52,023 nt of DNA. Source: Leptolyngbya sp. PCC 6406. GTDB lineage: Bacteria; Cyanobacteriota; Cyanobacteriia; Phormidesmidales; Phormidesmidaceae. The stretch lies in contig NZ_KI913949.1 in assembly GCF_000332095.2 (NCBI RefSeq), positions 43,421-95,443 on the forward strand, in the 5' to 3' direction. The position numbers and the translations under genes were made by a program. Below are positions 12,532 through 47,472 of this stretch, piece after piece. How positions within the stretch are numbered: the stretch's first letter is position 1; each line of letters opens with the position of its first letter. Below the pieces are notes generated by a model that saw nothing but the letters and a program-made list of their open reading frames with translations, made no database searches and was not told where the DNA came from.

Positions 12532-13119
12532 ATGGCCCCCCCCTCGATACCTGAGCAACCTGAGACCCCATCCTTAAGCGATCGCGATCTAGTAACCCGC
12601 CTGAGGAATGGTCAGATGGATGCCCTAGGAGCCCTCTATGACCGCTACGGAGGACTGGTGTACACCCTGGCCCTGAGAATGTTGACCAGTCGAGAAGCGG
12701 CGGAGGATCTGACCCAAGATGTATTTATGGCCCTGTCCCAGGGACAACAGTACGACCCCGATCGCGGTAGCTTGGGAAGCTATCTGGCCACCTATACCCG
12801 GTCTCGTGCCCTAGATCGTCTGCGGGTGAACAGCAATCGACTCCGCATTCTGCGACAGTTTCGCCAGATGCTGACCCCCAGCAGCAAGTCCCAGACTCCG
12901 GCGGAGCAAGTGGTTCAGCAGGAGCGATCGCACCGAATCAGGGCTGCTCTGCAAGAGATTCCCGACGCGGAACGTACCGTTCTCGAAATTGCCTATTTCG
13001 AGGGCTGTAGTCAATCCCAAATTGCTAACCGTCTCAACATGCCCCTGGGTACGGTCAAGACCCGCTCCCGCCAGGGGCTACGCCGTCTGCGCACGCTCCT
13101 GGAAGCCGATGATATCTAG
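12532..13119 (+). CDS. ECF-type RNA polymerase sigma factor
   Basis: A 195-residue sigma-70 family factor lacking regions 1 and 3. Region 2 is residues about 33-100 (ALYDRYGGLVYTLALRML ... DLTQDVFMALSQ) and region 4 about 140-190 (IPDAERTVLEIAYFEG, then SQSQIANRLNMPLGTVKTR, the -35 helix-turn-helix). It directs RNA polymerase to stress or envelope-related promoters. The anti-sigma gene follows 42 bp downstream on the same strand, and a divergent Tat-exported ferritin-like gene lies upstream, an arrangement typical of a self-controlled SigG/SigK-type module. Target promoters are not read here. Confidence 0.93.
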   Translation: MAPPSIPEQPETPSLSDRDLVTRLRNGQMDALGALYDRYGGLVYTLALRMLTSREAAEDLTQDVFMALSQGQQYDPDRGSLGSYLATYTRSRALDRLRVNSNRLRILRQFRQMLTPSSKSQTPAEQVVQQERSHRIRAALQEIPDAERTVLEIAYFEGCSQSQIANRLNMPLGTVKTRSRQGLRRLRTLLEADDI

Positions 13120-13161
13120 CCCCTACCGCCCCTTCCCTGTATCCGTTCTCCCCCATTGGCC

Positions 13162-13941
13162 ATGACTCAAGCTCCTCTCCCTGAAAATTGGCGCGATATC
13201 TTAGCAGGGTACGTCCTCGGTGATCTAGAGACCGAAGAGGTAACTCTAGTGCGGCAATGGCGTAATCTCTACCCCGAAGTCCGGCTGGAATTAGAGGCCC
13301 TAGAGGAGACCTGGAATGCAATCCCTGCCGCTCTCCCCGCCCAGATACCGCCGCCAGACCTACGGCATCGGATTCTCTCTACGGCGGCAGCAGCTACGCC
13401 ACCGCCTCAGGTGCCATGGTCAGGAACCGGCCCAAAGGGACCATTGCGGTCTTCATCTTCATCCCGCCCCGCCTGGGCCTGGTATGGCCTGAGTGCAGGC
13501 TGGGCAGTGACAGCCGTAGCGCTAGCGGTGGTGGCGATGGACAATAATCAACTCCGCCAAGAAAAGCAACAGGTAGAGGCGGTGGTCGCCCGCTTTAGCC
13601 AGCCCCGTAACCCGGTCTATACCCTGGCAGGGGCAGACGCCTTGCCGGAAGCTACAGGTCGCCTTGTCATTGATGCCAATACCCAGTCTGTCCTGATTGC
13701 CACCCAGGATTTGCCACCGTTACCCAGCGATGAAGCCTATCGTCTTTGGGCGCTGGCGGATGCTGACCCGGTGTACTGTGGACAGTTCAACCCCAGTGAT
13801 AGGGCCGCTATGAGCGAGTGGAAACTTCTCAGTCCATTATGTGAAGGCACTTCGGTGCAAATGCTCATCACCCGAGAATCCGTCAGTGCTCCCCCGATTC
13901 CCGCCGGTCCCCTTGTTCTTCAGGGACAGCCCCAGAGCTAG
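13162..13941 (+). CDS. RskA-type membrane anti-sigma factor
   Basis: The ATG at 13162 gives 259 residues. Residues 1-50 (ENWRDILAGYVLGDLETEE) are the cytoplasmic anti-sigma N-terminus; a single membrane segment lies near residues 110-132 (GLSAGWAVTAVALAVVAM); the rest is the RskA C-terminal domain (ATGRLVIDANTQSVLIA, SDEAYRLWALADADPVYCG) outside the membrane. It would hold the upstream sigma factor inactive until proteolysis. No zinc-binding HxxxCxxC is seen, as in the RskA class. The Ser/Pro linker before the membrane segment includes a translated copy of the REP-like palindrome (13414-13449), suggesting repeat invasion of a tolerant linker. Confidence 0.85.
   Translation: MTQAPLPENWRDILAGYVLGDLETEEVTLVRQWRNLYPEVRLELEALEETWNAIPAALPAQIPPPDLRHRILSTAAAATPPPQVPWSGTGPKGPLRSSSSSRPAWAWYGLSAGWAVTAVALAVVAMDNNQLRQEKQQVEAVVARFSQPRNPVYTLAGADALPEATGRLVIDANTQSVLIATQDLPPLPSDEAYRLWALADADPVYCGQFNPSDRAAMSEWKLLSPLCEGTSVQMLITRESVSAPPIPAGPLVLQGQPQS
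13414..13449. repeat. REP-like palindrome inside the anti-sigma gene
   Basis: CCATGGTCAGGAACCGGCCC plus AAAGGGACCATTGCGG matches, with one or two changes, the reversed units at 30311-30365. It is in frame and encodes the segment SGTGPKGPL of the linker. Confidence 0.7.
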
Positions 13942-14118: not shown

Positions 14119-14258
14119 CCACAGGGCGGAAATCAGTCCACTATTGTCGCGTCAGCCCAACATTTTCCGGTCCCCTCTCCCCTTGTGAGAGGGCTAGGGA
14201 GAGGGGCCGAGGTGTCCCACGATAGAACGGTTAGGGTACTTACGCCGCAGAGTACTAG
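14113..14258. mobile_element. CTAGTAC-family miniature element, copy B (146 bp)
   Basis: An intact copy running from CTAGTAC (14113) to GTACTAG (14258). The ends are inverted repeats (CTAGTAC ... GCGG/AAAT...), with the internal boxes CCCAACATTTTCCGGTCCCC, CTCTCCCC/GGGAGAGGG and CCACGATAGAACGG shared by all copies. It ends 12 bp from the stop of the reverse-strand methyltransferase gene. Confidence 0.8.
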
Positions 14259-16165: not shown

Positions 16166-17590
16166 CTATGGTTTCTGACGGGCCTCATACACGACGGCAT
16201 CAATTGGAGTCGGGTAGTTCAACTGTCCCTTAGATACCTTGGGAGACTCGTAAATCCGCCCCAGGGATCGCGCCCCGTAACCAAAGGTGGACTTTGCCGT
16301 CTCTGCGGCGGGGGCTTGATAAAAGGTCCGCTTACGGAGTTGGTAAGTCGTTTGATACAGCGTGGTCCGCACCCCATTGGCGGTAGCTAGACTGGGCTGC
16401 TCCACACCCTGGGAACGCCGATACAGATAATCTGCAAAGGATTGTTCCATCGTCAGGAGCGGCTGAGGTTCTGCCTGGGGGGCTTCATACTGTACCTGCA
16501 ACAGGGGCTGGGGTTCAGGGTGGACTGGATTTTGATACACCAGCGTCGGATTTTCACTGATTTCCGCAAAGTTTTGCCGCCAGTTCGCCAGGGTTTGACT
16601 GAGATCAAAGCCCATGGCCCGCTGGAAGTGCCAAAGCCCCCCTTGCAGGAAGAAAAAGGCCAGATAAAAGTGGGCATTGGCAAGCCAAGTGCGGTTAGAA
16701 TATCCCGCCTCTAGAGACTGATTGGGGTCAAAGTAGAAGGGCAAAAAGGCCGACTTAAGCGCCAACAGTGGCCCGTAGAACTCGGTGGGATAGGCCAGAG
16801 TATTAAAGCCGCAGTAGTAGGACGCAGCAAACCCAGCTAGGGCAATGCCAAATAGGGAGTAGGACAGAATGCCATCAGCGGAAAACATGAACCGCTGACG
16901 AACCCAGCCAAAGGGCGGCACCAAAATGTGCCAAGCGCCTCCCAGTAACAGCAATACTGCTACATAAATATGGCCCCCCACCAGATCTTCCAGATTGCTG
17001 ACATCAAAGAGGTGGGTGCGGTAGCTGAAGAGGGTACCCACATCCAGGGTGGGGGCCGTGACTAAACGGACTTCACCCAAGTCGGTATCGTACAGCCCAC
17101 CAAAGGCGGTGGCTTTGACCACCAGCAAGAGGGCACCCAAGCCCAAAATGGCGAGGTGATGACCCAGAATAAAGCCCAATTTGGGGGCATCATCCCAGTC
17201 AAAGTCGAACTTGGCGGCATTACCCGATGCCGTGGCCAAACTGGGGCCGAGACGCTCTCGGTGGAAATAGGCTCCCCCGGCCAAAACTCCAGCGGCAACG
17301 ATGTGGATCACGCCGATGGCAAAGGGAAGGAACCCGTTCTCTAGGACTCCGCTGGAGCTGATGCCCCAACCCTGGGTGGCTAAATGGGGGAGCAGAATCA
17401 GCCCCTGGGTGTACATGGGTGCATCGGGAGAATACACCGCTAGTTCAAATAGCGTAAAGGCTCCGGCCCAAAACATGATCAGAGCGGCTTGGGCCACGTG
17501 GGCGACAATAAACGTGTTCGATAAATCGATGAATCGGGTATTACCCGCCCACCAAGGATATTGCTCCTGGTTTTTGTTAACGGCGTACAT
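16166..17590 (-). CDS. isiX: CP43/IsiA-family chlorophyll a-binding antenna protein with C-terminal extension (IsiX-like)
   Basis: A 474-residue protein with the six membrane helices of the CP43/IsiA/Pcb family: residues about 26-50, 86-109, 137-160, 203-223, 238-262 and 303-325. Paired histidines of the chlorophyll sites are visible (VAHVAQ, GVIHIV, LGHHLA, GGHIYV, WHILV, ANAHFYL, LWHFQ). The long luminal loop of CP43 is absent, as in IsiA. IsiA ends near residue 345; here about 130 further soluble residues follow, rich in Gln/Pro then Tyr/Arg (TTYQLRKRTFYQ), with no recognised domain. The gene lies 261 bp downstream of the apcB3-like gene on the same strand, the layout of the low-light acclimation cassette of some cyanobacteria, where it would add chlorophyll antenna around a photosystem. 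Confidence 0.85.
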   Translation of the reverse strand: MYAVNKNQEQYPWWAGNTRFIDLSNTFIVAHVAQAALIMFWAGAFTLFELAVYSPDAPMYTQGLILLPHLATQGWGISSSGVLENGFLPFAIGVIHIVAAGVLAGGAYFHRERLGPSLATASGNAAKFDFDWDDAPKLGFILGHHLAILGLGALLLVVKATAFGGLYDTDLGEVRLVTAPTLDVGTLFSYRTHLFDVSNLEDLVGGHIYVAVLLLLGGAWHILVPPFGWVRQRFMFSADGILSYSLFGIALAGFAASYYCGFNTLAYPTEFYGPLLALKSAFLPFYFDPNQSLEAGYSNRTWLANAHFYLAFFFLQGGLWHFQRAMGFDLSQTLANWRQNFAEISENPTLVYQNPVHPEPQPLLQVQYEAPQAEPQPLLTMEQSFADYLYRRSQGVEQPSLATANGVRTTLYQTTYQLRKRTFYQAPAAETAKSTFGYGARSLGRIYESPKVSKGQLNYPTPIDAVVYEARQKP

Positions 17591-17662
17591 GGCGATGGTG
17601 TGACTGCTACAGAAGGGATGATAGGAACCTCACCTGAGGGATGACTCAGGCTAGAGTTTTGG

Positions 17663-17835
17663 GTTAGGTCGGTGCGGCGTAAATACTCTAACCGTTCCAC
17701 CGTGCACACCTCGGCCCCTCTCCCTAGCCCTCTCCCAGAGGGAGAGGGGACCGGAAAATGTTGGGCTGGCGCGACAGAATAGTAAGCCTATTTCAGCCTA
17801 AGAGTCCTGGGTCGGTGCGATCGCACCGACCTAAC
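17663..17835. mobile_element. CTAGTAC-family miniature element, copy C, between apcB3 and isiX
   Basis: The core (GCGGCGTAAATACTCTAACC, CCCTCTCCC, GGGACCGGAAAATGTTGGGC) matches the family, but the outer ends are different: GTTAGGTCGGTGCG (17663-17676) and its exact complement (17822-17835). It fills nearly all of the apcB3-isiX gap and could form a large stem-loop in a read-through transcript. Confidence 0.7.
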
Positions 17836-17851
17836 CTGAATTCCGGGAGTG

Positions 17852-18337
17852 TTAGCTCAAACCCGCAATGATGTGGTCTAGATAAACATCCATTTCTTGA
17901 CCCGCATCGGCTCCCACCCGGTGGGTTACCACTTCCTTCATGGCCTGAACCGCCTGAATTGTGGCTTCAACGGGTACGCCCAAGGAGCTGTAGGTTTCCT
18001 TCAATCCATTCAATACCCGCTCGTCCAAAATCGAGGCATCTGCCGCCAACATAGCGTAGGTGGCATAGCGTAGAAAATAGGTTAGATCCCGCAAACAGGC
18101 GGCATAGCGGCGGGTAGGATACATATTGCCCCCAGGACAAGTGATGTCTCCATATAGCAGGCTTTTAGCCACAGTTTCGCTAATGATACTGGCGGCACTG
18201 TCGCCAATTTGGCTGGCGGCTTTCACCCGTAGGGTTCCACTCTGAAAGTATGCTTTCAGCGCGTCTAGTTGCTCCCCTTCCAGGTAGATGCCTTGCTCAT
18301 CAGCGGGGTTAATTGTGGCGGTAATGGTGTCTTGCAT
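17852..18337 (-). CDS. apcB3: Allophycocyanin beta-type subunit (ApcB3-like)
   Basis: A 161-residue beta allophycocyanin. The bilin-attachment Cys81 sits in [20 protein letters not shown], and Asn71, the site methylated in beta subunits, is in PGGNMYPT. Length and helices match ApcB closely. It pairs with the alpha-type subunit encoded 85 bp upstream on the same strand, with GAGG before its ATG as ribosome site. An isolated alpha-beta pair next to an IsiA-like gene matches the apcD4-apcB3-isiX low-light cassette; assignment as apcB3 rather than a second apcB or apcF rests on that context. The product would form far-red-absorbing allophycocyanin on the cytoplasmic face of thylakoids. Confidence 0.88.
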
Positions 18338-18422
18338 GATTTTCCTCTACTAAAGCTTTAGATCAAATGGTTCTCAGACTACGATGGGATGTCGCTGCGA
18401 TCACAACGACAAGTGCCAACTG

Positions 18423-18896
18423 TTAGAAAGCCCGAATGAGCTGCTCAAAGTAAGGGGCAGCTAATGCGCCTTCTTCTGCGGTCAAGAGCCCGATGGCCAC
18501 GTCTTTTAGACACTTCATCGCTAGCTTTAGATTAGAGAGGGGCACCCCTAGAGAGAGGTACATATCACGCATGCCGTCTAGGCCAATGTCTTCTAGGGGC
18601 TTGGCATTACCGGCGAGGACACAGTAGCTCACGAGGCGGATATACCAGCCTTGGTCCCGCTGGCACAACATGGTTTTCTGGGAATCACCACTGTTGCTAG
18701 GGGTATTAGGGCATTGAGCCCAAAACCGCTTACTGCCTTCATCAACAATTTTCTGCTGATTGCTGGCCAGTTTCTGCGAAGCACTAATCCGAACTGTTCC
18801 ATTTCCAAAGAAGTCCTGAAGTTTGGTCAGTTCAGCACTACTTAGAAAACGGCTGGCCTCATCAGATTGGGCAATAACTTTGGCAACAATACTCAT
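18423..18896 (-). CDS. apcD4: Allophycocyanin alpha-type subunit (ApcD4-like)
   Basis: A 157-residue alpha-type phycobiliprotein. It has MSIVAKVIAQSDEASRFLS at the start, the bilin-site KTMLCQRDQGWYIRLVSYCV with Cys78, and the standard C-terminus AAPYFEQLIRAF. Compared with ApcA the loop before the bilin cysteine (CPNTPSNSGDSQK, about 62-74) is divergent and the usual CLRDLDYYLR is replaced by CQRDQGWYIR; bulky changes here are characteristic of red-shifted ApcD-type subunits. A strong AGGAGG lies 9 bases before the ATG, and the beta subunit gene follows. Cys62 and Cys92 are extra cysteines. Whether the bilin is covalently bound cannot be told; far-red members of this group vary. Confidence 0.85.
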   Translation of the reverse strand: MSIVAKVIAQSDEASRFLSSAELTKLQDFFGNGTVRISASQKLASNQQKIVDEGSKRFWAQCPNTPSNSGDSQKTMLCQRDQGWYIRLVSYCVLAGNAKPLEDIGLDGMRDMYLSLGVPLSNLKLAMKCLKDVAIGLLTAEEGALAAPYFEQLIRAF

Positions 18897-19325: not shown

Positions 19326-19470
19326 CTAGTACTGGGCAGCGGAAATACCCTGGCCGTTCCATCGTGGCACACTCGGCCCCTCACCCTAGACCTCTCACAC
19401 GGGGAGAGGGGACCGGAAAATGTTGGGCTGGTGCAACGATAGTGGTCTGATTTACGCCCTGCGGTACTAG
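19326..19470. mobile_element. CTAGTAC-family miniature element, copy D (145 bp)
   Basis: Intact copy in the opposite orientation to B, bounded by CTAGTAC and GTACTAG, with CCGTTCCATCGTGGC and GGACCGGAAAATGTTGGGCT inside. From 19471 to 19610 only a hairpin (AGAGCTTGCTCT / AGAGCAAGCT, 19521-19561) is seen. Confidence 0.8.
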
Positions 19471-19735: not shown

Positions 19736-20188
19736 CTAGCTGCTGGCAGAGCGGCTGCGATCGTAGGTGGCCCAAAAGCTGGGGTGCACCTTGCCCTGGA
19801 TATGGTTCCAGTAGTGGGTGGCATCATCCACCGCTAGACCAACTTCCGCAGCTAAACGGCCCATCATGGCCTGTTGACGGCGCTTGACGTTGCGGTGGTG
19901 GCCCATCAGCATGGTCCGGGCTCTTTCTTCTAGGCCCGTGGACACAGCGGCAGTCGTCGCTACAGCGGGAGCAGTCGCAGTCACAACGGGAACCGGGGCA
20001 GTAACTTCGCCCGTCCGGTAGGCTACGCCGCGATACATGAGATCAACTGTAGACTGCTGCACAGGTGCTTTCTTGATGGTTCTGAAGCGAATATCGACAC
20101 CGCGATATTTGCCCACTTCAGACGTTTTGTCCAGCTCTGCAACGGGGGGATTGTAGTCGTATTCAATGCCGCGATAGGTGAGTTTCAT
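19736..20188 (-). CDS. DUF4278 domain protein
   Basis: A 150-residue protein. The first ~60 residues carry two copies of the DUF4278 motif: MKLTYRGIEYDYNPP and VDLMYRGVAYRTG, with GKYRGVDIRFR between. Then comes an Ala/Val/Thr-rich linker (about 62-85) and a basic helical C-terminus (RARTMLMGHHRNVKRRQQAM). DUF4278 proteins are common in cyanobacteria, often stress- or light-responsive; no biochemical role is known. GGAGG precedes the ATG. It is upstream of the antenna genes on the same strand, but a terminator and 840 bp separate them, so it is probably an independent unit. Confidence 0.8.
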   Translation of the reverse strand: MKLTYRGIEYDYNPPVAELDKTSEVGKYRGVDIRFRTIKKAPVQQSTVDLMYRGVAYRTGEVTAPVPVVTATAPAVATTAAVSTGLEERARTMLMGHHRNVKRRQQAMMGRLAAEVGLAVDDATHYWNHIQGKVHPSFWATYDRSRSASS

Positions 20189-20400
20189 GGTTCGCCTCCA
20201 TACGTTTTCCGGGAATATGGGGCGCGTTCCTTCGGAGTCCGGTGCCTCCTACTTCCGTCTTCTGGCTCGTGAATTGAGAGAAGAAGATGAACGTATTTGC
20301 TCTATGTCTGTATCTTATTTTACAGTTTTGGTGATCGTCAACCTGTGATCACAAAACTAAGGGATCGGATTTCCGCCCCGGAACCGTTAAGATGCCCCGT

Positions 20401-38311: not shown

Positions 38312-38553
38312 CTAGTACGCTGCGGCGTAAATAGCCTAGCCGTTCTATCGTGGCACACCTCGGCCCTCACCCTAGCCCTCTCCCACGGGGAGAGGAGACC
38401 GGAAAATATTGGGCTGGTGGAGCACAAGTTTGATTTTCAGGGTTTCGTAGGGTGCATAGCGCTAAGGCGCGGCTTCGCCCACGCGAAGCAATGCACCGCA
38501 GAAAGGCAACGCCTAGGGGGAATGGTCACAGGATTTGCACCGCAGAGTACTAG
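38312..38553. mobile_element. CTAGTAC-family miniature element, copy E (242 bp, long form)
   Basis: Bounded by CTAGTAC and GTACTAG, with terminal TGCGGCGTAAAT (left) and ATTTGCACCGCA (right) as inverted repeats. It equals the short form plus about 95 bp that include GCGCGGCTTCGCCCACGCG and the GCATTGCTTCGCG-type repeat. Nearly identical to copy F. The rest of 38075-38698 shows no gene. Confidence 0.8.
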
Positions 38554-43052: not shown

Positions 43053-43288
43053 CTAGTACTGGGCATGGGCAGCGTAAATCCTCTGGCCGTTCTATCGTGG
43101 CACACTTCGGCCCCTCACCCTAGCCCTCTCCCACGGGGAGAGGGGACCGGAAAATATTGGGCTGGTGGAGCATAAGTTTGATTTTCAGGGTTTCGTAGGG
43201 GGCATAACGCTAAGGCGCGGCTTCGCCCACGCGAAGCAATGCACCGCCTAGGGGAAATGGTCACAGGATTTGCGCCGCAGAGTACTAG
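43053..43288. mobile_element. CTAGTAC-family miniature element, copy F (236 bp, long form)
   Basis: Near-identical to copy E, bounded by CTAGTAC and GTACTAG. Its terminal CTAG provides the TAG stop of the adjacent restriction-modification gene (43285-43287), so it inserted into that gene's 3' end. Confidence 0.8.
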
Positions 43289-44714
43289 TCTGTGGGTAGG
43301 CCGAGGTCGGGTAAGGCGTTGACGATTTTGACGGTCTCTAGGCTGACGGTGATGACCTTTTTGATCAGTCGAACGATGTATTCTTCATCGTCGAGGCGGT
43401 TGGGGTCGTTGGTGATGCCGCTGCGTTTGTCGGTTTTGATGCGGTATTGGTCGATCACCCAATCGAGGGCGGAGCGGTTGCCGAGGCGGTACTCAAAGGC
43501 TTCTGGGGGAATGCCTGTGAGGGTGAGAAAGTCGTTGTATTTGAGTTGGGTTTTGTCTTTGCTGAGGCGCATTTTCTCTACGCGCCAATCAATGGGCAGG
43601 TCTTTATTTTCTAGGTGTTTGAGGGGATATTCTGGCTGATCTTCGTAGTGGACGTGGATTTCGGCTAGGCGTTGGCCTGCGATCGCAAAGGGGCGAAATG
43701 CGGGGGCGTAGGGAATGCGGGGGAGTTCGCGTTTGAGGTTGGCGGCGTAGCGGGTGCGGTAGTGGGGATGGTGGAGAACGGCGTAGGTGTAGTAAAAGAT
43801 GTCCCATTTGGTAATGGTGGAATCTTCGTAGTGGGTTTGAAATTGTTCTAAAACCCAATCGGTAATATTTTCTCTACGGTTCGTGCCGTCTTTATCGTAA
43901 GTGTAGAAGGGAAAACACTGAGAACCACCTTGCGTGAGCAAATTGGGTATGCAGTGAATCATCAAAGAATACATAGAAATTTCTGATCCAATTTTCAACC
44001 ATATAGCTCTATTCTCAACTTCCGACTCTAAAGTAGGGAAGAAAAATCTTTGAAGTGTTGGTGCATCAATTAAGACATAATCAAAATAAAGATATTTTTT
44101 TGAAAAGGGTCTCCATTGAGAAACTCGAATTTGTGTTTCATCAAAATCAACTAGTTTCTCACGCTTGAACTTATCTATTAATAGAGAAGACCATTTTATT
44201 CTTTTGCTGTCATTCGTGACAAACTTGAGTATCTCCCCTGGCTTTCGAGCATTTCTCCATCTAGCAATTTCAGTATTATATGTTTCACAAAAAAGACTGA
44301 CATTTGTTTTTAAACTCTCATGGCTATATGAATATAGCCAATCATCTCTATTTGTCGAAACACCCAAAGCATATTGATCAAAAACAACATCTTCTAAACT
44401 CTCAAAATCTAGCTTTGAGCTTTTAGTTCTTTGGGAGGCTAGAGCAATGTATTCGTCGTATTCTGGCTTCAGTTCGCGACCAAGCCAAATATAGTTCTTG
44501 GTAGGCTTGATGATTTCCCAATCAAGCTCTGAATAAACTCTAGAGCTTTCTAAGAAATGGTATTTATTTTCTTTGCGCCAAAATTCATTAACATTTTTAT
44601 AAAAAATATCAATCCCCTGCTGATTTTCTTTCTTGATCAGAATACTTATTGATACACCAACTTGTATGCCAAAGACATTATGTGTTGTTCCCGAAAGCTT
44701 GGGATTTTTTCTAA
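43285..44714 (-). pseudogene. 3' part of a type ISP/IIG-like restriction-modification gene, split by an IS
   Basis: Reading resumes right after the insertion: RKNPKLSGTTHNVFGIQVGV, continuing through EFWRKENKYHFLE and WLGRELKPEYDEY to LPDLGLPTD and a stop. This is the target-recognition and C-terminal specificity region (VTNDSKRIKW, FFYDYVLIDAPT-type, IPYAPAFRPFAIAG, TLTGIPPEAFEYRLGNRSAL, DWVIDQYRIKTDKRSGI), typical of type ISP enzymes. About 475 residues. Base composition changes inside it: AT-rich before about 43860 (in the gene's upstream direction) and GC-rich after, suggesting a swapped recognition domain. The stop codon comes from the miniature element at 43053-43288. Confidence 0.8.
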
Positions 44715-45625
44715 GAGGGTGTCTGAAAAGCTGGAATGTAGGTATGAATTAGCACGTTAGTCGCCTTAACATGACTCGAATATTGGCCACATAAATCCAT
44801 GCCTCAGCGGTCTCTGGTAGGCGCTCATAGTCTTTACTCAAGCGGCGGCAAAAAGTAAACCAGCCAAATGTGCGCTCCACCACCCACCGCTTGGGTAACA
44901 GCACAAATCCCTGCGCACAGTCGGGGCGCTTGATCACCTCAATCACCCATCGAAAGCGGTCCATGATCTCTTTCATGAAATCGTTACCGCTATATCCCCC
45001 ATCAACCCAAATGACACACAGGCGAGTGAACCACTGACTAACCTGATGCATTTTTTCTAGCACCTTTCGTGCGCCATCCCGCTCAGGGAGACTCGCTGCG
45101 GTAACCACAACCATCAGCACTAAACCCATTGTGTCGACCACCACGTTTCGCTTCCGACCTTTGACCTTTTTGTTTGCATCGAAGCCGACCGACTCCGAAA
45201 TGTAGACATCGCTGTTCACCGACTGACTATCCATCACCGCTGCACTGGGAGACGCTTCGCGCCCCTCCGTTAACCGCACCAACTCCCGCAATCGGTGATT
45301 GATGTGTTCCCACACCCCATCATTGCGCCATTGGCGAAAATAATGGTAGACCGTTTTGGCCTTCGGGAAATCATGGGGTAAGCACCGCCACTTGGTGCTA
45401 TTGTCCAGAACGTACAGAATCGCATTGACCACTTCTCGCATATCCGTGCTCCGAGGTCGTCCACCAGGCTTCGCCGGAGGAATCAAGAGAGAGAGAATAT
45501 CCCATTGTTCATCAGTCAAATCGGTGGGGTAGGATAATCGCATTGCCCTCAAAAACCCTATCAAGTGTACTTACTGACTGATAGAGTAGCGTTTTTGAGG
45601 GCCTTTCTACTTCTCAGACACCCTC
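44715..45625 (-). mobile_element. IS5-family insertion sequence (IS1031-like), 911 bp
   Basis: Ends GAGGGTGTCTGAAAAG (44715-44730) and, reversed, GAGGGTGTCTGAGAAG (45610-45625) differ at one base. TAA is duplicated on both sides (44712-44714 and 45626-45628), fitting the 3-bp TNA target of IS1031-type elements. It carries one complete transposase. Deleting it with one TAA restores an open restriction-modification gene exactly. Confidence 0.92.
44749..45540 (-). CDS. IS5-family transposase
   Basis: From the ATG at 45540 the enzyme has 263 residues. DUF4096-type N-terminus (SYPTDLTDEQWDILSLLIPP, GGRPRSTDMREVVNAILYVL), and a DDE domain with VMDSQSV (first Asp, about 108), WVDGGYSG (second Asp, about 178) and RWVVERTFGWF (Glu, about 220). 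It cuts and pastes the element bounded by 44715-45625. No frameshift or stop, so it is probably active. Confidence 0.92.
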   Translation of the reverse strand, partial: RLSYPTDLTDEQWDILSLLIPPAKPGGRPRSTDMREVVNAILYVLDNSTKWRCLPHDFPKAKTVYHYFRQWRNDGVWEHINHRLRELVRLTEGREASPSAAVMDSQSVNSDVYISESVGFDANKKVKGRKRNVVVDTMGLVLMVVVTAASLPERDGARKVLEKMHQVSQWFTRLCVIWVDGGYSGNDFMKEIMDRFRWVIEVIKRPDCAQGFVLLPKRWVVERTFGWFTFCRRLSKDYERLPETAEAWIYVANIRVMLRRLTC

Positions 45626-47291
45626 TAACGTTGCCGCCCAAATCCAAACAATATATTTTGCTAAAGTCTCGCTCAAGATTTTTTCTCATTCCGCCAAAAG
45701 TGTCTTGATCTAGAAAAGAGTTGTTTGAAACGAAGCATACAATACCTTCCTTCCCAATCCTGTCAGTTGCCCATCGAAATGCCTTTATGTAGGGATCAAA
45801 TAGAAGTTTTCTTGTTGTGCGACCTACTGATGCACAATCTGATATGTAAGTCTTTTTGATCCTGTCATCTAAGGCATCGTGCTTTCGGTTTTTATTCAGA
45901 TCCATCTCATTTTGTTGATTTGCATTGTATGGAGGATTCCCAATGATTACAAATATACTTTTCTGCTTTTGCTGCTCAACTCTTTGAGTATTGGCAGCAT
46001 TAAAAAGTGACAATTGCTGGCCCTCTGTCAATTCAAAAGTATCAACCATACAAATTGAATCGAAGGATTCATACCTTCCAGTTTGTTCAAAGTATTCATG
46101 CTCAATATTCATTGAGGCAATGTAATAGGGCAGCAACATCACTTCATTACAGTGCAATTCATGTTGATATTTATGGGGTAATGCCGACTTCTGAATTTCT
46201 GCAATCTCTCGCATAATGCGAATAATGAAATTCCCCGTCCCCACAAACGGATCGAGAATATGCACCCCCTTATCTACCAGCGACTTGCCAAATTCCCGCT
46301 GTAAGATATCCTCAACACTTTTCACCATGAAATTCACAATCGGCTGCGGCGTGTAGACAATGCCGTGGGTATCCGCCACCTTGATCGAAAAGCCCTGAAA
46401 AAAGCGCTCGTAAATCGTGTTTAAGAAATCCTGCTTTTGAGAAAAGTCATCAATCGTGGCGGCAGTTTCCTCAATCGCGCCATAAAACCGATCCAAACTG
46501 CTCAGAAAGTGAGCCCGACTAAATGACTTTGACGTAAGCGCATTGATCACCTTCTCAATTTCCACCGCAATGATGTTGCGTTGGGCAAAGTCGGGATTGT
46601 TAAACACACTGCGAAAAATTCGCTCCGTCAGCAAGTGCTGAATCAGCATTTCCTCCACCGCTTGCTGACTCAAGTTGGGGTTGATCGACTGCCGACACAG
46701 GGTTAAAAACTCCTTAAAGGCATCAATAAACCGCTTGTTCGTCTTTGCCTGGGCCTGAATCAGCTTGAGCAACGCATTGCCATGATCCTGCACCCGTTCC
46801 CCAAATTCCTCAACCGCTCGTTCCCATTGGTCAATGGCCGGGGGGCGATATTCAAAAAACTGCCGGACAATATCCACCAACCGCTGGGGGTCAGTGATGT
46901 CTTCATCCATTACCAAGCGGCCATCCTGGTACAAAATGGCGCGATCGGGCTGTTGAAAGATGATGTTGTCTTTGGGGTAGCCCGTCTTAAATTTCTTCTG
47001 GACTTCCTTCCTTAAGTCGTCCCGGCTATCCTTCGCTTCCCAGTAAGCCCGTGCCAAGTTGTAGCTATCTACCAACGCCCCATCAATGCGTAGGGGCTGT
47101 TGCTTGGGGCGCTTGAACGGCCATTCCGGCACTAGAGTCCAGGAGAACTGCCGACCGCAGGACACCAGTAAGTTCTGAAACGCCGTCTTCACCGCCATCT
47201 CATGCTTCACCCCCAACTGCTCATAGTCCTGGAGGGCGGCGTAATAGGCTTTGATGGGTTTGTGGGTGGGCTTCAGGCTGAGGCTAGGCAT
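45626..47291 (-). pseudogene. 5' part of a type ISP/IIG-like restriction-modification gene, split by an IS
   Basis: From the ATG at 47291 about 555 residues before the insertion at YCLDLGGNV. The N-terminal ~130 residues look like a PD-(D/E)XK nuclease (RIDGALVDSY ... ARAYWEAKDSR, with Asp and ExK). Then a helical domain (about 180-300), and an N6-adenine methyltransferase: TPQPIVNFMVKS, ILDPFVGTGNFIIRIM (motif I), and VIIGNPPYNANQ (motif IV). No helicase, so it is shorter than classical type ISP enzymes; reconstructed length is about 1,030 residues. After the IS joins, 21 unrelated residues and a stop follow. Upstream starts to 47333 are possible. Confidence 0.85.
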
Positions 47292-47472
47292 TGAGCGGGA
47301 CTCAGTAACGTTACAAGAGGGCAAACAGCCCATCGTCGATTTCGTAGCCCAACATTTAGGGATTTTTCAGCGTGATTAAGCGTGTTCCAGGGCGTTGCAG
47401 TAGGGCCACCATCATCCCAGCGGCAATTCAGTTGGTTTTGTCGATTTTAATAGACCTGTTGGGAAATAACGA

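Follow-up and report, generated by a model that had tools for sequence, protein, structure and literature searches.

A low-light photoacclimation cassette in Leptolyngbya sp. PCC 6406 and the putative tyrosine modules in the tail of its IsiX protein

The apcD4-apcB3-isiX locus

The window analysed here is a stretch of 52,023 nucleotides of Leptolyngbya sp. PCC 6406 (contig NZ_KI913949.1, positions 43,421 to 95,443). The initial annotation had placed in it, on one strand, an allophycocyanin alpha–beta pair and an IsiA/CP43-type protein, and three intact minus-strand open reading frames are indeed present there (Table 1). The pair is isolated, as had been said: the other phycobiliprotein genes found in the same genome sit elsewhere. 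ApcD4 and ApcB3 match the Pfam phycobilisome family (E 3.4e-49 and 1.7e-53, respectively), and the CQRDQGWYIR motif that had been read around Cys78 is that of ApcD4. IsiX matches the Pfam CP43-type PSII family (E 2.1e-58, best stretch residues 11–275) and the NCBIfam chlorophyll a/b antenna family (residues 13–330, 378 bits, for a cut-off of 335). The gap between apcB3 and isiX is 261 bp long and holds one copy of a dispersed 111-bp repeat, about which one can only speculate that it might affect the expression of isiX.

Table 1. Features of the cassette, with their positions in the window
Feature	Positions	Strand	Basis
apcD4, far-red allophycocyanin alpha subunit, 157 aa	18423..18896	-	Pfam PF00502, tree, 8DDY chain A
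Bilin pocket CQRDQGWYIR, ApcD4 residues 78–87, with PCB-binding Cys78	18636..18665	-	sequence, PMC11614940
apcB3, beta subunit, 161 aa	17852..18337	-	Pfam PF00502, tree, 8DDY chain B
Copy of the dispersed 111-bp repeat, apcB3-isiX gap	17665..17775	.	repeat comparison
isiX, IsiA-like chlorophyll-binding protein, 474 aa	16166..17590	-	family matches, tree
IsiX residues 1–345, CP43/IsiA-type membrane domain plus the short helix that follows	16556..17590	-	
IsiX Gly318 codon, position of IsiA H333 (Chl405 ligand)	16637..16639	-	
IsiX residues 346–474, soluble tail, 129 aa	16169..16555	-	
Span of the seven putative tyrosine modules, Y352 to Y468	16187..16537	-	

The Rfam model of IsrR, the antisense RNA of isiA, scores 84.8 bits on the plus strand (17020–17197). 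We rejected this match and attribute it to conserved coding sequence, because the model also scores on psbC (162.7) and isiA (75.0) of the same genome, and matches opposite every CP43-type gene searched, the CP47 locus alone being without a match.

The gene trio, the clades and the key residues all agree with the proposal that apcD4-apcB3-isiX is a low-light photoacclimation (LoLiP) cassette; judged from its sequence, the Leptolyngbya trio is the published cassette, of a known type. The cassette of hot-spring Synechococcus, which includes lcyA, is described with the same three genes (PMC4477158, PMC10038336). The two are alike in their nanotube and PCB residues, and the tail of IsiX has 129 residues in Leptolyngbya compared to the 127 reported, in line with the C-terminal extension of about 100–127 residues that is a LoLiP trait. 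They differ in the gap with its dispersed repeat, in an extra cysteine of the Leptolyngbya ApcB3 (Cys67) and in the LcyA photoreceptor of Synechococcus, whereas no photoreceptor of LcyA type (GAF or histidine-kinase domain) was found in the 26 neighbour proteins scanned. We treat LcyA as optional for LoLiP membership, because operons of related type without a photoreceptor are on record in PMC12214013 and PMC12279586.

Conservation of the cassette and of its three proteins

The comparison covers 29 cassettes, a lower bound, with 80 of 110 confirmed relatives retained (14 of those 80 are at least 74% identical, the remaining 66 at most 45%); genome G412, whose contig ends before isiX, was left out. 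The order apcD4-apcB3-isiX on one strand is found in 28 of the 29 listed cassettes, and isiX or its tail lies next to apcD4-apcB3 in all 29.

In the phylogeny of the allophycocyanins, which used 73 of the 80 distinct sequences (seven phycocyanin-type or distant ones were left out), ApcD4 and ApcB3 each form a clade of their own (100/99 in both cases), separate from ApcA, ApcB, ApcD and ApcF of the same genome, as we labelled them in the present analysis. The pair does not cluster, therefore, with the core subunits ApcA, ApcB and ApcF. The nearest sister group of ApcD4 consists of six ApcD sequences of FaRLiP type (98/87). The FaRLiP allophycocyanins (ApcD2, ApcD3, ApcD5, ApcB2) differ from the LoLiP pair in having Ala at alpha position 11 (eight sequences) and Ser or Lys at beta position 11 (three ApcB2-type sequences).

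In the PDB, both subunits match best to 8DDY, the solved far-red nanotube, with 77% identity for ApcD4 (chain A) and 75% for ApcB3 (chain B). Alpha Ser11, beta Thr4 and beta Pro11, which are tied to helix formation in PMC10038336, are all kept in the Leptolyngbya pair. Ser11 is present in 29/29 listed ApcD4, versus 1/32 of the other listed sequences that match ApcD4 best; Pro11 (29/29) and Thr4 (28/29) are typical of the listed ApcB3 and occur in none of the 11 other listed sequences. ApcD4 also keeps Cys78, which binds PCB (PMC11614940); Cys81, likewise PCB-binding, is kept too.

Another cluster of LoLiP type is that of Halomicronema hongdechloris, which absorbs at 728 nm and is described with the same trio and no GAF photoreceptor nearby (PMC12279586). 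H. hongdechloris also carries FaRLiP, whereas no FaRLiP-type ApcD was found in the Leptolyngbya genome: the next alpha-type matches there are 44% and 38% identical, and the FaRLiP-type ApcD of other genomes show 45–53% identity. A terminal-emitter role inside phycobilisomes has been suggested for the 728-nm pair of H. hongdechloris by Chen et al. (2025; PMC12279586). The same could hold for ApcD4-ApcB3 of Leptolyngbya, with IsiX being incidental; the L036 cassette, which lies near phycocyanin-type genes, linkers and a bilin reductase, with homologues in L048, goes in this direction. We consider this unlikely for Leptolyngbya, since Trp75, which is required for the absorption at 728 nm according to PMC12279586, is replaced by Thr, the linkage to isiX or its tail holds in every listed cassette, and the far-red allophycocyanin of Synechococcus is reported to co-purify with IsiX rather than with phycobilisomes (PMC10038336).

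IsiX forms a clade (100/98) that is sister to IsiA, the iron-stress antenna of PSI, the two IsiA sequences used falling outside; this tree contains 25 of the 29 listed IsiX, two domain-less and two frameshifted forms being left out. IsiX is 54.7% identical to the IsiA of the same genome over 333 residues, and the quenching Cys260 is retained in 26/26 listed IsiX. The two proteins differ in the linkage to apcD4-apcB3, in the long repeat tail and at two positions of the chlorophyll domain: that of H333 is Gly or Ser in 27/27 listed IsiX, and that of Q206 is Arg or Lys in 25/26 and Ile in the remaining one. The IsiA ligands H159 (25/26) and Q331 (27/27) are retained, the remaining chlorophyll ligands being compared solely as conserved His. 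IsiX thus lacks ligands of two chlorophylls, Chl405 and Chl416, that are located at the IsiA–IsiA ring interface. The Synechococcus IsiX, which is outside the present set, was predicted to have the same Chl ligands (PMC10038336), unlike the 27 listed proteins as regards H333.

ApcD4 has a patchy distribution (5/386 genomes of the phylum sample, 19/63 of the order), isiX is split into two frames in L044 and L047, and a repeat copy separates apcB3 from isiX in Leptolyngbya. This could be taken to mean that the strain acquired the cassette horizontally and keeps it as an unused relic. We regard this as highly improbable, given that the three reading frames are intact and the key residues retained. 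Viral contigs gave 26 pattern matches, none of them a relative, and the best of six plasmid records is 49% identical, below the level of ApcD4.

The tail of IsiX and its natural variants

The last helix of IsiX is followed, as had been noticed, by about 130 soluble residues without a recognised domain. No Pfam or NCBIfam match covers this tail, it has no hydrophobic stretch (the highest 19-residue Kyte–Doolittle mean is -0.06) and no relative was found in the PDB (best E 0.74). It is not an ordinary CP43/IsiA region. Homologous tails are present in the 28 other listed cassettes, and the existence of such tails in other genomes rules out a chance origin. The initial annotation called the tail unusual, which it is not for an IsiX: this C-terminal extension is known from the IsiX family and was described in 2015 and again in 2023, when a role as a ruler was proposed (PMC10038336).

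Stand-alone homologues of the tail were sought in 386 genomes. The profile search gave matches in nine of them at E <=0.1, five of which are cassette genomes; the four others (E 0.026–0.064) have stops inside and were discarded. The single-sequence search gave seven at E <=0.01, again with five cassette genomes; G282 (a non-IsiX reading frame) and G300 (stops inside) were dropped.

Tyrosines 352, 368, 390, 412 and 447 are present in 29/29 listed tails, Tyr424 in 28/29 and Tyr468 in 25/29, and tyrosine accounts for 6 of the 11 most conserved columns (P 3e-5, computed afterwards). Internal repeats are frequent: 44 window pairs exceed the threshold compared to a mean of 2.8, and none of 2000 column permutations, which preserve composition and conservation, reached this count. 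On this sequence evidence, the tail consists of seven degenerate tyrosine modules in a row. It is true that Pro, Gln and Tyr are abundant in it, and that its pLDDT is about 28 in the AlphaFold model, so that the repeats could reflect the composition bias of a disordered tail that binds nothing. This is very unlikely in our opinion: five tyrosine columns are invariant although 18 listed tails are merely 29–65% identical to that of Leptolyngbya, the permutations keep the composition, and dN/dS of the tail is 0.10–0.27 in six full-length pairs (another two, both with the Leptolyngbya tail, were saturated and yielded no value). The AlphaFold model of IsiX, obtained from a 15-row alignment, is too poor (mean pLDDT 42.8, residues 340–474 below 50) to say anything on docking.

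The length of the tail varies naturally; in L053, for example, it has 112 residues. The L173 tail is lengthened by an exact in-frame duplication of 177 bp, or 59 residues, to a total of 187. The tail of L180, from a sister genome, is longer by about 62 residues and measures 223; a self-BLAST gave no repeat, and this lengthening, read by eye from two FYQ-S-A-L-type stretches 62 residues apart, is less sure than that of L173. In L036 and L048, a tail with seven Tyr but no chlorophyll domain adjoins an intact apcD4-apcB3; a domain-less IsiX of this kind belongs to Pleurocapsales cyanobacterium LEGE 10410. For this pair, dN/dS is 0.40 for the tail, and 0.46 (NG86) but >1 (YN00) for the whole protein; the constraint on these domain-less tails is uncertain.

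These domain-less forms bear on what the tail may bind. Since IsiX is sister to IsiA, and the C-terminus of one IsiA copy is described to contact PsaF in the PSI–IsiA ring of T. vulcanus (PMC7214436), the tail could dock to photosystem I or to neighbouring copies of IsiX, and not touch allophycocyanin. However, a tail that merely holds IsiX at PSI makes little sense in L036 and L048, and the ligands of two ring-interface chlorophylls are missing from IsiX, which makes this explanation rather unlikely.

A possible tether for far-red nanotubes

We think it fairly probable that ApcD4 and ApcB3 assemble into nanotubes with an absorption near 709 nm, which the tail of IsiX tethers near photosystem I by its tyrosine modules, perhaps setting their length. 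ApcD4 and ApcB3 would form a far-red allophycocyanin, probably stacked as helical nanotubes. IsiX, derived from IsiA, would bind chlorophyll in the thylakoid membrane, probably next to photosystem I, and its tail would be a flexible chain whose seven modules bind repeatedly along the nanotube, so that the tube is tethered to IsiX and its length may be set. The far-red absorption, the nanotubes and the co-purification with IsiX were demonstrated with Synechococcus proteins (PMC10038336); we infer that the Leptolyngbya proteins behave in the same way, with the tyrosine modules touching allophycocyanin and PSI serving as acceptor. In Chlorogloeopsis, the cassette genes are reported to show no rise in far-red light (PMC4658448, PMC6424891), an observation that counts against this explanation, as does the lack of a photoreceptor domain among the 26 neighbour proteins scanned.

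The arrangement would work like CpcL-type PSI-bound rods, in which a membrane-held protein brings a phycobiliprotein cylinder to PSI (PMC10038336). The likeness is a functional analogy. The IsiX tail matches no Pfam linker family.

A fully extended chain measures about 3.3 Å per residue, so that the stretch between Y352 and Y468, 116 residues long, would reach about 380 Å. A docking role of the tail, as inferred in the initial annotation, is already in print: in the proposal of Gisriel et al. (2023), a 127-residue extension of IsiX runs through the nanotube beside PSI and acts as a ruler (PMC10038336). A straight thread that caps the tubes at 10–13 protomers does not fit, because 380 Å overshoots the 104–135 Å that correspond to this number of protomers (10.4 Å each, from the reported 72.6 Å per seven protomers). 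A winding path of the tail, or longer tubes in cells, would leave room for a ruler.

The string of tyrosine motifs suggests that the tail may tether or measure antenna tubes. More tentatively, but still plausibly, the tail could be a multivalent scaffold or tape measure, in which each of about seven tyrosine modules holds far-red allophycocyanin and of which nature provides variants: the L173 tail would have gained an exact three-tyrosine module, the tail of a sister genome would have been lengthened similarly, and the domain-free tail of two genomes would act as a stand-alone linker. With the IsiA ring contacts given up, IsiX would carry tubes singly, not in a closed ring of IsiA type.

What is new here is the anatomy of the tail from the 29 cassettes compared (tyrosine modules, length variants, domain-less forms) and the ligand losses. 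PMC10038336 leaves open how the nanotube is attached to the photosystem and what limits its length. Both become testable with the tyrosines, with natural tails whose lengths range from 111 to 223 residues and with tails that are free of the membrane domain. The cassette being present in 19 of the 63 genomes of the order, a three-gene route to far-red light harvesting may be widespread in this group.

The cassette and its setting

The three minus-strand ORFs listed in the table consist of an allophycocyanin (AP) pair and an IsiA/CP43-type gene, as the initial annotation had described them, and its reading of the trio as apcD4, apcB3 and isiX was correct: this is a known system, the low-light photoacclimation (LoLiP) cassette. 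The genes are separated by 85 bp (apcD4–apcB3) and 261 bp (apcB3–isiX). In a 73-row AP tree, where own-genome and some other row names were assigned from identity and tree place, the alpha subunit falls inside a clade of 18 ApcD4 (support 100/99), which adjoins six ApcD of the separate far-red response, FaRLiP (98/87), and the beta subunit falls inside a clade of 19 ApcB3 (100/99). Of the strain's own subunits, ApcD and ApcA branch apart from the former clade and ApcB and ApcF from the latter, so that no clustering with the own core subunits is seen.

The genome of PCC 6406 (5.78 Mb, 3 contigs, completeness 99.96%) seems to encode no FaRLiP-type ApcD, since the other alpha-type AP found in it are 44% and 38% identical to the window ApcD4, against 45–53% for FaRLiP-type ApcD from other genomes. 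Apart from isiA and psbC, it also carries three further CP43-type genes in tandem (520, 343 and 363 aa; contig C1:1534849-1541046, loci L005 and L006).

The top PDB match of both subunits is the far-red AP nanotube 8DDY (77% identity for ApcD4, 75% for ApcB3). The residues named as causes of helix formation (PMC10038336), alpha Ser11, beta Thr4 and beta Pro11, are all retained in the window pair. Ser11 is present in 29/29 ApcD4 (28 listed rows, L037 being identical to L053) and in 1/32 other rows (L066), Pro11 in 29/29 ApcB3 and Thr4 in 28/29 (Lys in locus L044), the last two being found in 0/11 other rows. Cys78 and Cys81, the ligands of the chromophore PCB (PMC11614940), are also kept. Position 75 of ApcB3 is Thr, unlike in the 728-nm pair of H. 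hongdechloris, where Trp75 is required for absorption at 728 nm (PMC12279586); because of this Thr75, absorption at about 709 nm is the more plausible estimate for the window pair.

Features of the window discussed in the text
Feature	Coordinates	Strand	Remarks
apcD4	18423-18896	minus	far-red AP alpha subunit, 157 aa; phycobilisome protein by family match
apcB3	17852-18337	minus	AP beta subunit, 161 aa; phycobilisome protein by family match
isiX	16166-17590	minus	474 aa; CP43-type chlorophyll protein by family match
sigma-70-type factor, then RskA-type anti-sigma factor	12532-13941	plus	about 2.2 kb from isiX; no demonstrated link to the cassette
repeat copy	17665-17775		apcB3–isiX gap
repeat copy	19327-19437		upstream of apcD4
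repeat matches	14152-14175, 38394-38417, 43142-43165
150-aa protein	19736-20188	minus	DUF4278 fused to glutamine synthetase inactivating factor IF7A domain
glutamine riboswitch	20221-20295	minus	Rfam RF01739, 52.4 bits; directly upstream of the 150-aa protein
Type ISP restriction-modification domains	43285-47333	minus	spread over separate ORFs
Type ISP C-terminal specificity domain	43285-44367	minus
Type ISP coupler and methylase	45561-47333	minus	271-aa ORF between this and the specificity domain

Two copies of a dispersed repeat of about 111 bp, which has an internal inverted repeat and matches the genome at 45 or more places, flank apcD4–apcB3. The predicted fold of the apcB3–isiX gap RNA is more stable than those of shuffled sequences (z −2.62); speculatively, this fold might reduce isiX relative to AP. 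A family search of 26 neighbour proteins, three of which had no family match at all, found no photoreceptor domain. The cassette genes are reported to show no increase in far-red light in Chlorogloeopsis (PMC4658448, PMC6424891) and to increase in H. hongdechloris (PMC12279586). Elsewhere in the window, the Type ISP system may be split or broken.

At least 14 ApcD4 loci occur among 80 of 110 confirmed relatives, including Leptolyngbya, Nodosilinea, Hyella, Spirulina, Gloeomargaritales and Synechococcus SynAce01. ApcD4 was found in 5/386 genomes of a phylum sample (identity at least 66%; three more genomes, with only 49–53% rows at the same cut-off, are left out) and in 19/63 genomes of the order (at least 78%), 11 of which also have a FaRLiP-type ApcD. 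We compared 29 distinct cassettes (the window, loci L036-L039 and L041-L054, and ten more: L165, L166, L169, L170, L172, L173, L176, L177, L179 and L180). In all 29, apcD4 is accompanied by apcB3 and by isiX or its tail; isiX is on the opposite strand in one, L039. Among ORFs of at least 110 aa at 20 loci, the only neighbour families that recur at four or more loci are response regulators (six loci) and isiX-antisense ORFs (five), which is consistent with apcD4-apcB3-isiX having spread as a unit. In two cases isiX is split over two frames, by decay or sequencing error (L047:11182-12701, Synechococcus sp. SynAce01; L044:3778-5251, a low-coverage MAG).

The chlorophyll domain of IsiX

IsiX forms a clade (support 100/98) that is sister to two IsiA rows. 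Ligands were numbered by alignment to T. vulcanus IsiA (6K33), in agreement with L330 and Q331 as named in PMC7214436. According to that paper, H333 of IsiA binds Chl405, which touches the neighbouring IsiA in the ring. The aligned position (residue 318 in the window) is Gly or Ser in 27/27 IsiX rows, against His in 7/7 other CP43-type rows. Q206, the ligand of the interface chlorophyll Chl416, is replaced by Arg or Lys in 25/26 rows and by Ile in one. On the other hand, H159 is kept in 25/26 rows and Q331 in 27/27, and so is, in 26/26, Cys260, the residue responsible for quenching in IsiA (PMC8545134). The same chlorophyll ligands as in IsiA were predicted for Synechococcus IsiX (PMC10038336); this is a difference and no contradiction, because that strain is outside the compared set. 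An Rfam match to IsrR, the isiA antisense RNA, opposite isiX (17020-17197, plus strand) was rejected: the model scores higher on psbC, which points to coding conservation.

The IsiX tail and its natural variants

The tail (residues 346-474) is soluble, and has neither a Pfam or NCBIfam family match nor a solved relative in the PDB. The initial annotation was thus right about some 130 soluble residues with no recognised domain, but not in calling them unusual: the tail itself is an already known feature of IsiX. The additional transmembrane helix considered probable by Olsen et al. 2015 (PMC4477158) is not seen in the window tail.

Across the 29 cassettes, the tail measures 111-223 residues. 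Tyr352, 368, 390, 412 and 447 are present in 29/29, Tyr424 in 28/29 and Tyr468 in 25/29. They belong to modules, degenerate between one another, that when aligned with each other approximate P-x-P-hydrophobic-x-x-[V/L/T]-[L/F/V]-Y-[Q/E]-x-[P/S]. When the profile of the 29 tails is compared with itself, 44 window pairs exceed the threshold, against a mean of 2.8 in column permutations (equalled in 0/2000; best single pair reached by 1/2000); 19 tails gave 38 pairs against 2.8 (0/500; best pair reached in 3/500). In each of the seven tails given a shuffling test, Y[E/Q] pairs are more frequent than in the shuffled versions (p 0.0001 to 0.021).

Natural variants change the length of this array. 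The isiX of L173 (L173:5817-7415) contains a gapless in-frame 177-bp tandem duplication (59 residues, three conserved Tyr, 95.5% identity). In the 223-residue tail of L180 (L180:2449-4155), part of the same stretch recurs 62 residues later, as read by eye; self-BLAST did not report this repeat. The two lengthenings may not be independent, since L173 and L180 pair with each other in the IsiX tree (support 97/94).

In two other cassettes, L036 (genome G070; L036:7621-8142, 173 residues) and L048 (Pleurocapsales LEGE 10410; L048:11407-11940, 177 residues), about 28 N-terminal IsiX residues are followed directly by the tail, and the chlorophyll domain is absent. An assembly error common to two genomes is unlikely. 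The three indels of L036 and L048 are all in frame. The rest of G070 gave no full-length IsiX, its matches being of PsbC and CP47 type apart from a 51% fragment interrupted by a stop. Upstream of the L036 cassette are phycocyanin-type genes, linkers and a bilin reductase, and downstream a PAS-GAF histidine kinase, with homologues in L048. The tail dN/dS of L036 and L048 against the full-length L049 is 0.17-0.18, compared to 0.10-0.27 for six full-length pairs. Between L036 and L048, it is 0.40 for the tail, at low divergence, and 0.46 (NG86) or above 1 (YN00) for the whole domain-less proteins, with 0.10 for apcD4 and 0.13 for apcB3 (NG86). Constraint on the tail after loss of the chlorophyll domain is, from these ratios, likely but not proven, and the domain-less form suggests a joint function of tail and AP pair.

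A possible role of the tail

Combining the published complex (PMC10038336) with the anatomy described here, we propose that AP tubes would lie in the cytoplasm and IsiX in the membrane, the tail holding several AP protomers via its repeated Tyr motifs. At full extension the tail exceeds the length of 10-13 protomers. In the far-red nanotube, one helical repeat of 72.6 Å takes in seven protomers (PMC10038336); the equal number of tail modules is treated as a coincidence, though one that deserves testing, and carries no weight as evidence. Photosystem I as the energy acceptor is a proposal of the authors of that paper. In the available text of the papers that describe the extension and the ruler idea, Soulier et al. 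2022 and supplements aside, we found no mention of tail repeats or tail tyrosines. Nor did we find in them the lengthened tails, the form that lacks the chlorophyll domain or the loss of interface-chlorophyll ligands.
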